Shown here one piece after another: positions 36,535 to 37,908 of a stretch of DNA of 64,000 bases. Made by a program: the position numbers and the translations under genes. Origin of the DNA: Pseudomonas sp. R84. Its GTDB lineage: Bacteria > Pseudomonadota > Gammaproteobacteria > Pseudomonadales > Pseudomonadaceae. The stretch covers positions 3,461,501-3,525,500 of the forward strand of contig NZ_CP019426.1 in assembly GCF_009834515.1 (NCBI RefSeq), in the 5' to 3' direction. The stretch's first letter is position 1, and each line of letters begins with the position of its first letter. The notes under the pieces were generated by a model. It saw only the letters and a program-made list of their open reading frames with translations. It searched no databases and had not been told where the DNA came from.

Positions 36535-36542
36535 CCCTGTAG
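36535..36542. repeat. Left remnant of the repeat interrupted by the IS110 element
   Basis: CCCTGTAG at 36535-36542 joins the repeat remainder GAGCTGCCGAAGG at 37825 once the insertion is removed. This restores the standard unit CCCTGTAGGAGCTGCCGAAGG seen elsewhere in the window. Confidence 0.85.
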
Positions 36543-36557
36543 ATACTCTGTTCACGG

Positions 36558-37553
36558 TCAAGCTTTTGCGAGATCTTTTGCGCAAAAAAGCTTGGCCGTA
36601 TTGAAATCTTCGCCGGCTCGCATGCAGGCCCACAAGCCGGTCAGGTATTTGCGCATGACGGCGACGATAGCCTGCATCTTTCTCTTCCCTCGCCCGATCA
36701 ACGCTTCGTAAAAGGCTTTCACGTTGCTGTCGCAACGTATGGCAGTCAGCGCTGGCATGTACATCGCTGAACGTAGGTAGGTGTTTCCGCCCTTACTTAT
36801 CCGCCCAGGTTTATCGATGCTGGTACCTGATTGCGTAAGCCGCACATCGAGTCCTGCATGTCGGCTGACCTGCGCGGACTTAAGTGTCACTGGCAAGGTC
36901 GTCAATTCAGCCAGTGCCGCAAATACTGAAATTTCGCCCATGCCCGGCGCTGCGATCATGTGCCCAAACTGGGCGCTTAGCGTCGGGCAGTTGTCGATCA
37001 GCGCCCGACCTGCGAGCCTGAAACGCTCGATTCGCTTGTCAAAAGCTTCAATGGCTTCTTCTTCGTCTTCAATCAGCATTTTCACGGTTGTTTGAGTAGC
37101 TTTCAGCGCATGCAGCTCGTTCTTGGCTCGGGTGCGATGACACGTCAAACGATTGATATGCCTTCCGATAGCCCGCAGTTCCAACTGTATGGTCGTGGGC
37201 GGCGTCCACAATTTTGGGCTCATGCGTTCGCCGTATTCGGCTAGCAACTGGGCATCGATCGCATCGGTTTTGCTGTTTTTCAGCATCAGCTTGGCAAAGT
37301 TATGAAAGCTCTTCGGGTTGATAACCGAAACGGGCAAACCCGCCGCGGTGAGCTCCATGGCCAAATCCAGGTAATAGATGCCGGTGGCCTCCATCACTAC
37401 GGATAAAGGCTTGAGCTCGAGCAACCTGTTGACCGCTGCTTTGCGCCCGGCGGGTGTTTGGTCGATGTTGCAGGCCCCTGCAAAACGGCCGTCGTTGCGC
37501 CAGCCCATGGCGGTCGTGCGAGACCCCACATCCAAACCGACATGCATGCTCAT
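36558..37553 (-). CDS. IS110-family DEDD transposase
   Basis: 331 aa. The RuvC-like DEDD residues are D8 (GLDVGS), E55 (MEATGIYY), D97 and D100 (KTDAIDAQLL). The C-terminal transposase-20 domain has the conserved serine S253 in ISKGGNTYLRSAMY, the proposed nucleophile in IS110 recombinases. HAGLD and the APGMGEISV segment are also typical. No frameshift or stop interrupts it, so the element may be mobile. A coiled region occurs around 150-190. Confidence 0.95.
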   Translation of the reverse strand: MSMHVGLDVGSRTTAMGWRNDGRFAGACNIDQTPAGRKAAVNRLLELKPLSVVMEATGIYYLDLAMELTAAGLPVSVINPKSFHNFAKLMLKNSKTDAIDAQLLAEYGERMSPKLWTPPTTIQLELRAIGRHINRLTCHRTRAKNELHALKATQTTVKMLIEDEEEAIEAFDKRIERFRLAGRALIDNCPTLSAQFGHMIAAPGMGEISVFAALAELTTLPVTLKSAQVSRHAGLDVRLTQSGTSIDKPGRISKGGNTYLRSAMYMPALTAIRCDSNVKAFYEALIGRGKRKMQAIVAVMRKYLTGLWACMRAGEDFNTAKLFCAKDLAKA

Positions 37554-37599
37554 GCTTTCAACTCCGAGTGAACTGGGTTAGAAATGCATCCTGGTTCCC

Positions 37600-37790
37600 C
37601 TGACCTCGAACTTCATGCCACTGCAACCTTGTAATGCGAAGTCCGACTTGTCGGCTTCTCGATACTCTTCGTGGTGGGCAATGAGGCGGGGGGACCTCTC
37701 TACAGACAAGGTCAGGAGCAAGTCCTGCCTTTAGGAGCGATCGGTCTCCCCCAGAAACACATCTTCGTATGTCCGCACCAGCGAGCTTAG
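37600..37790 (-). ncRNA. Candidate IS110 bridge RNA
   Basis: Read on the minus strand, the noncoding end folds into two guide-bearing loops; outer limits are approximate. Target loop 37684-37730: stem GGACTT/AGGTCC encloses GCTCCT (37714-37719) and CTGTAG (37700-37705). These correspond to the left target AGCTC-CT and to the complement of the right target CT-ACAG at the insertion site. Donor loop around 37625-37672: AGAGTATC (37661-37668) equals the element's right end, and TACAAG (37628-37633) is the complement of CT-TGTA at its left end. Both loops therefore match the actual junctions, as expected for a bridge RNA. Confidence 0.82.
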
Positions 37791-37822
37791 ATCTCAATTG
37801 ACTGGTGTGAGGGCAACATACA

Positions 37823-37908
37823 AGGAGCTGCCGAAGGCTGCGATCTTTTGATCTTGATCCTAAAAAACAAAATCAAAAGATCGCAGCCTTCGGCAGCTCC
37901 TACAGGGG
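37823..37908. repeat. Inverted repeat of the GGAGCTGCC family, right part of the IS110 target
   Basis: AGGAGCTGCCGAAGGCTGCGATC and its facing copy GATCGCAGCCTTCGGCAGCTCCTACAGGGG. The left unit lacks its CCTGT beginning, which is found on the far side of the IS element. The facing right-hand copy is intact. Confidence 0.9.

Follow-up and report, generated by a model that had tools for sequence, protein, structure and literature searches.

An IS110-group insertion sequence in REP repeats of Pseudomonas sp. R84: a predicted bridge RNA and guides that covary with targets among relatives

The element, its ends and its insertion site

The window analysed here is a stretch of 64,000 nucleotides from Pseudomonas sp. 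R84 (contig NZ_CP019426.1, positions 3,461,501 to 3,525,500), numbered from its first letter. On the minus strand at 36543-37822 it carries an IS110-group insertion sequence of 1280 bp, measured between two core dinucleotides CT that appear as AG on the plus strand (right end, 36541-36542; left end, 37823-37824; both minus). These limits are set by the flanks of six near-identical copies in the same genome, which share their ends but diverge in their outer flanks, and, for the single CT, by an uninterrupted site in three sister genomes. Four copies are identical and the remaining two each differ from those at three positions. All six start with TGTATG and finish with AGAGTAT, and each stands at GCAGCTC-CT-ACAG in a REP repeat: the left flank GCAGCTC-CT and the right flank CT-ACAG are present in 6/6, and past ACAG the right flanks diverge (ACAGGG, ACAGTG and ACAGGT among the six). 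The original prediction for this locus, made from the sequence by itself, had named the target CAGCTC-CT-ACAGGG, the ends TGTATG...AGAGTAT and a common CT core, all of which are present, and had called the target REP-like.

The flank-joined sequence was searched against 38 related genomes, 20 of which gave some match. In the three matching relatives examined (L173, L174 and L176), the match spans or reaches across the junction, the sequence reads through with a single CT, and the REP pair lies there without the element. The empty-site pair is shorter in L174 and shows small differences in L173 and L176, including one C absent from the second REP arm of L173, distant from the junction. Single-core empty sites in relatives thus indicate a precise insertion that split one arm of a REP pair. 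The remainder of this inverted repeat, to which no strand is given, occupies 37825-37908; its first arm is split by the insertion, and its second retains a GCAGCTCCTACAGGG target at 37893-37908, in the opposite orientation and about 70 bp from the element. Of 84 matches listed for the element and flank in a partly scored list, 78 are on the REP pair alone. Fourteen Rfam matches up to E 1 at 37816-37907, on both strands and mostly to microRNA models, are below their gathering scores and were set aside as artefacts of the REP palindrome.

Between the ends, a transposase/recombinase of 331 aa is encoded at 36558-37553 on the minus strand. It carries the Pfam domains DEDD_Tnp_IS110 and Transposase_20 (PF01548 and PF02371, both above cut-off) and is recognized by the NCBIfam model 'IS110 family RNA-guided transposase' (NF033542, 178.8 bits against a cut-off of 140). 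The two hallmarks of the IS110 family, a DEDD RuvC-like domain and a C-terminal serine domain, are both present. Residues D8, E55, D97, D100, S242 and S245 are invariant across 16 aligned sequences, the window's included, and alignment to IS621 suggests that they form the active site. Only two solved structures were matched, the transposases of ISCro4 (PDB 9t56), the best-scoring solved-structure recombinase at E 2.1e-34, and of IS621, at 96.6 bits over residues 33-320. ISCro4 is a different element, and its likeness is one of protein sequences alone. Among 2200 plasmid protein records, every one was below 60% identity and no ISPpu name appeared among the 25 listed; a plasmid DNA search returned one partial Vibrio match, which covers left-end bases 67-230, or 13% of the query, at 73.8%. 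The noncoding ends are markedly unequal, with 269 nt upstream of tnp on the left and 15 nt past the tnp stop codon on the right. A guide RNA in a long right end, the trait of the IS1111 group, is therefore not found in this element, whose predicted RNA lies on the left.

Guides and fold of the predicted bridge RNA

The left end (37554-37822, minus, 269 nt) is predicted to encode a bridge RNA with two loops, a structure conserved in 27 aligned left ends. Along the RNA the order is AUCGCUC-CU, a hairpin, UCUGUAG, AGAGUAUC, a second hairpin and CAUUACAAG (37628-37636). The first, or target, loop is closed by a stem whose 5' arm GGGGGAGACC (37743-37752, minus) pairs with 37688-37696 (minus), where the consensus fold places the 3' arm GGTCCCCCC. 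Within it lie a putative left target guide (LTG), AUCGCUC-CU at 37733-37741 (minus), which equals the left target at GCTC-CT, and a putative right target guide (RTG), UCUGUAG at 37700-37706 (minus), which contains the complement of CT-ACAG, so that GUAG would pair with CT-AC and the following bases with AG. Between them is the hairpin capping the loop, part of which (37710-37721, minus) holds a second GCTCCT, distinct from the guide. In the second, or donor, loop, the left donor guide (LDG) AGAGUAUC at 37661-37668 (minus) exactly equals the right end of the element plus the C of the core, and the right donor guide (RDG) CAU-U-ACAAG at 37628-37636 (minus) is complementary, by inspection, to CTTGTATG at the left end, the pairing being interrupted by one unpaired U.

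Since single matches are only 6-9 nt long, any one of them between the noncoding end and the flanks could be a coincidence. Their joint occurrence is another matter. In 20,000 first-order Markov sequences modelled on the left end, the target pair in order and 10-60 nt apart arose in 0.09%, the donor pair in order in 0.01%, and both pairs together in none. With the covariation across relatives described below, this makes chance a vanishingly small prospect as the source of the guides.

The fold was derived by alignment with MAFFT, made without structure, from which RNAalifold then chose a structure. The consensus for the 27 left ends has 37 pairs, forming the target loop first and the donor loop second. 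Paired cells amount to 93.9%, versus 85.3% after shuffling and at most 49.1% with partners slid, a control that favours the fold to some extent because the structure came from the same alignment. Compensatory changes are frequent: 21 of the 37 pairs changed on both sides, and 100 cells did so versus 30.9 in shuffled alignments. For further pair types, however many the alignment shows (42 versus 38.0), 44 of 500 shuffles do as well, leaving one of five structure measures not clearly above them. The target-loop stem, helix 2 of the fold, has 97.4% of its cells paired, with two of its seven pairs changing on both sides and five invariant. Single-sequence folding of the left end was no better than that of shuffled sequences (z -0.59 and -0.80) and is uninformative, so that the structural evidence is that of the alignment. 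An Rfam search gave no matching family for the left end.

Covariation of guides and targets among relatives

If the left end does encode guides, their letters should follow the targets from one relative to the next. Relatives were drawn from 298 genomes of the genus (8 matched), 369 of the class (6) and 398 of the family (7), each match count including the genome of the window itself and the best few candidates being scored per genome; 58 further loci were taken from named genomes. The resulting 112 loci (L021-L132) gave 78 that were readable and, once identical flanks had been collapsed, 59 distinct insertions in 19 LTG classes, with transposases at 47-100% identity. Of the 34 dropped loci, 13 were at no more than 45% identity, 6 had no transposase match, 10 were truncated at the 5' end, 4 lacked the end anchor and 1 the guide anchor; two of them, L088 and L096, agree by eye and are uncounted. 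Ends and guide positions were located through conserved neighbours that exclude the tested letters. As the left end was found by the anchor CTTGTATG and the guides by fixed neighbours, changes at these places are invisible, and any covariation of the RDG with the left end is hidden.

Over the LTG classes, guide and left target agree at a mean of 5.44 of 7 positions versus 3.37 +/- 0.29 after shuffling, a value that no shuffle out of 20,000 attained. Taken singly, each position from -5 to -2 scores above all 2000 shuffles. The signal is weak at -6 (reached by 85 of 2000, with matches in 0.52) and at chance level at -7 (1841 of 2000, matches in 0.10), and position -1 is uninformative because it is constant in the guide. 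The guide therefore seems to read no more than the core and four or five positions on its left. In the core itself, the LTG of L078, L070 and the copies in genome G020 has CC where the target core is CT, which leaves the core T mismatched on the target-loop side.

The target, too, is nearly constant at -1. In published work, the positions after the RTG and the RDG are those of the handshake bases (PMC11208158), which in bridge RNAs of the IS621 type go with position 7 of target and donor. The A after GUAG (37699, minus), facing the last donor base T, is found in 59/59 distinct insertions, and the G after the RDG (37627, minus), facing the last left-target base C, in 58/59, as is the target C itself. 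The RDG +1 base and target -1 form G-C in 57/59, with one G-T and one C-C. Handshake pairing would explain why the target hardly varies at -1 while it varies from -2 to -5.

The RTG was compared over 48 rows in 11 classes, seven of them single insertions. No right target was available for L022, L041, L070, L071, L079 and L080 (in L022 and L041, from genome G213, because a truncated second copy follows), and L072, L110, L113, L119 and L121 have no RTG under the pattern used; all of these stand outside the test. L028 has two right ends in tandem, and its right target was taken from the first. When the two bases beside GUAG had to pair exactly, 2 of 5000 shuffles equalled the observed count; for four other versions of the count, differing in base number or wobble, 5 to 16 of 5000 did. 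By these sequence counts the RTG covaries with its target, more weakly than the LTG does. Right targets are often mismatched beyond CTACA; the element of Pseudomonas fluorescens PfAR1, for instance, sits at CTACAT with a guide for CTACAG. On the donor side, where the right end was read in 57 of 59 rows, it is identical to the LDG over seven letters in 48, carries a single G.T-compatible change in 8 and a mismatch in 1. In three relatives with the RTG AUGUAG (L124, L027 and L058), CTTGTATG also occurs inside the target loop, where it repeats the left end and core of the element letter for letter and might serve as a donor-like site.

Neither the shuffles nor the closest-pair contrasts are tree-based, and hosts and repeats are common to related elements. 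A match between guide and target might thus be inherited without selection, the element simply remaining within whatever repeat class its host lineage has, and GCTC does stand at LTG -4 to -1 in most Pseudomonas-type rows. Two observations make this improbable to a high degree. Disjoint closest pairs with different guides, taken from 31 groups with no reuse, were concordant in 14 of 14 cases and discordant in none. Within the genome of the window, moreover, 864 kb of sampled sequence has CTACAG preceded by ACTC 43 times and by GCTC 34 times, so that the two sites are about equally common, yet the six copies, whose guide is GCTC, have without exception inserted at GCTC; by hand calculation, (34/77)^6 is about 0.7%, a figure that holds only if the six copies are independent.

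One comparison is near-isogenic. The PfAR1 element (L051), whose transposase is 98% identical to that of the window, has the LTG letters ACTC and sits at ACTC, and the window's element has GCTC at GCTC; the change of a single letter in the guide is accompanied by that of a single letter in the target. This bears on a further account, in which the transposase protein alone reads the REP and the noncoding end acts as a regulatory RNA or is targeted by one, as proposed for Asr9/Ssr9 of ISPpu9, its likeness to guides being incidental. REP targeting was known for several IS elements before guide RNAs (PMC1525189), and two small RNAs of ISPpu9 in P. putida are reported to regulate translation of its transposase (PMC8450116). 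A protein-only reading nevertheless leaves unexplained how nearly the same transposase came to a target altered at the very letter altered in the guide, with the capping hairpin keeping GCTC, and how guides and targets came to agree in all 14 contrasts. We consider it very unlikely.

The same relatives settle which GCTCCT is the guide. The original prediction had correctly recognized GCTCCT and CTGTAG in the noncoding end, in that order, but had taken as left guide the GCTCCT within the stem-loop 37684-37730. That is the second occurrence (37713-37718), in the capping hairpin, and as a candidate guide it was rejected: its letters equal the target in only 14 of 54 rows. The LTG at 37733-37741 lies just outside this stem-loop, and in 57 of 59 distinct insertions the four letters that precede its core are those of the target. 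In the PfAR1 relative and the G213 copies L022 and L041, the target is ACTC and the guide AUCACUC, and the hairpin is unchanged at GCTC. The donor motifs AGAGTATC and TACAAG had likewise been placed in the right order, the RDG being longer (CAU-U-ACAAG) than the TACAAG proposed. The idea of a bridge RNA is thus supported, with the left target guide moved by one motif; it would have been undermined by loops that stay constant when flanks change, and in the relatives the guides do change with their targets.

The four-letter match is broken in two of the 59 insertions, L031 (guide GCTC, target ACTC) and L024, which is out of register. L024, in genome G020, has the guide GGTC and the left junction ATTCACGTCGGT-CT, and lies in the apparent start of another IS110 transposase gene; it is apparently an off-target insertion.

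Proposed mechanism, known systems and host repeats

Taken with the empty sites and the conserved fold, these covarying guides argue strongly that the element belongs to the IS110 group and moves by bridge-RNA-guided recombination, a reading to which we attach a probability of about 0.94. By analogy with IS621, from which circle excision, transcription, binding of the RNA by the protein and the chemistry are all borrowed, excision would join the ends of the element around CT. The joined ends would assemble a promoter from which the left end could be transcribed into the bridge RNA. Its target loop (LTG AUCGCUC-CU, RTG CUGUAG) would pair with both strands of GCTC-CT-ACAG within a REP and its donor loop (LDG AGAGUAUC, RDG CAU-U-ACAAG) with the joined ends of the element, and the DEDD/serine recombinase would exchange strands at the common CT.

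The two halves of such a promoter are found at opposite ends of the element. A -35-like TTGACC at the right end (36556-36561, minus) overlaps the tnp stop codon, and a -10-like TATGTT lies at the left end (37815-37820, minus). Only with the ends joined around CT do they stand 17 bp apart; as long as the element is integrated, TCGCAG fills the -35 slot. TTGAnn occupies the -35 place in 51 of the 57 insertions read and is absent from the other six. The junction would thus create a predicted sigma-70-like promoter, TTGACC-17-TATGTT, and a promoter rebuilt at the end junction has been described for IS110 elements (Durrant et al., PMC11208160). The left end immediately precedes tnp on its strand, so a junction transcript could double as the tnp leader. 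It is therefore conceivable, if rather doubtful, that the RNA serves both as a bridge RNA and as a regulator of the transposase, either as leader of the tnp mRNA or as target of an antisense RNA, for which ISPpu9 offers a precedent (PMC8450116).

IS621 of E. coli is the prototype bridge-RNA element of the IS110 group and itself targets REPs (ATCAGGC-CT-AC; PMC11208160). Its four guides come in the same order, its structurally defined RTG consists of the four bases pairing with CTAC, and its RDG pairing is interrupted (PMC11208160, PMC11208158). The element of the window thus resembles IS621 in its group, in a bridge RNA (here predicted) at the left end, in the CT core, the REP target and an RTG complementary to CTAC (PMC11208160), and further in the handshake bases, a predicted promoter across the junction and, as a candidate feature seen by inspection, an interrupted right donor pairing (PMC11208160, PMC11208158). 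It differs in a distant recombinase, other guides and another REP, and its RTG seems to read two more bases (CTAC-AG). Closer to home, ISPpu9 and ISPpu10 of P. putida KT2440 enter REPs at one position (Tobes and Pareja 2006, PMC1525189), between bases 9 and 10 of the Pseudomonas REP and with a 2-bp direct repeat, which for ISPpu9 is AG (PMC1525189, PMC8450116); these two are likened to the present element by published description. A predicted bridge RNA of ISPpu10 is among six shown by Durrant et al., who tested guide covariation on 5,511 target pairs (PMC11208160). ISPa11 of P. aeruginosa, from the IS1111 group, also targets REPs, and its seekRNA, which comes from the noncoding region and is purified together with the transposase, carries matches to the target; in contrast to the present element, this RNA lies downstream of tnp and holds the matches in reverse order (PMC11187229). 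With IS621, ISPpu9/ISPpu10 and ISPa11 as precedents, neither the mechanism nor REP targeting is new. The relatives do put the bridge-RNA rule to the test again in a group whose recombinase sequences are far from that of IS621, and they supply many naturally tuned sets of guide, target and recombinase.

What is interesting beyond the known kind is the pattern at the level of the clade. Read on the opposite strand, CTAC is GTAG, which tags one REP super-family (PMC3733652). GUAG is found in 26 of the 27 aligned left ends, the exception being L070 with AUAG, and 52 of 53 extracted right targets begin with CTAC, though the search demanded only CT. Thirteen genomes were scanned for target 10- to 13-mers, picked after the insertion sites had been seen, and each pattern read backward gave the control. 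Counts (controls in brackets) for GCTCCTACAG were 242 (51) in the genome of the window, 184 (50) in G217 and 119 (26) in the Microbulbifer genome G992, and for CGGTCCTACR 123 (43) in G020. TCACTCCTACA occurred 881 times (2) in G213 and 137 (1) in PfAR1 (G993), and also 578 (2) in the genome of the window, 94 (1) in G034 and 93 (0) in G020. CCCGACCTACAG gave 159 (2) in G544, TTCGGCCCTACAG 69 (0) in the Parahaliea genome G988, and CCCACCCTAC 310 (13) in Alcanivorax (G989), 23 (3) in Stutzerimonas (G990) and 40 (28) in G544. With several repeat classes per genome, the counts do not follow the guides one to one. The target of a host's own guide is over-represented in 10 of the 11 hosts whose guide was among the patterns; the other is G034, at 49 versus a control of 62, and the guides of G991 and G994 are outside the pattern set.

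These counts incline us, by a narrow balance, to the view that a gammaproteobacterial clade of IS110 elements has specialised on GTAG-tagged REPs, with GUAG and the handshake G kept nearly fixed to read a REP tag common to hosts of different genera, and four or five letters of the left guide re-written for whichever repeat class is abundant in the host, candidate REPs outside Pseudomonas included. Such a clade would record one natural retargeting after another, its members being parasites of repeats that are spread by another transposase (RAYT). The host-repeat counts further suggest a route for changing hosts, in which the shared REP tag is read and a few letters are re-tuned. A literature search that covered few subscription papers and no bioRxiv preprints found no account of guides tracking the REP classes of their hosts from genus to genus, which is weak evidence of novelty.

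Some relatives depart from the simple layout of a single element between two ends. In genome G213, the loci L022, L030, L036 and L041 each hold a complete element and, behind it, the 3' part of another copy (residues ~200-331), with AGAGTAT-C joined straight to an internal transposase codon, and the composite seems to have moved as one unit. In L089 and L028 (Root562 / G131), the transposase reading is interrupted and there are two tandem right ends, separated by slightly more than 100 bp.
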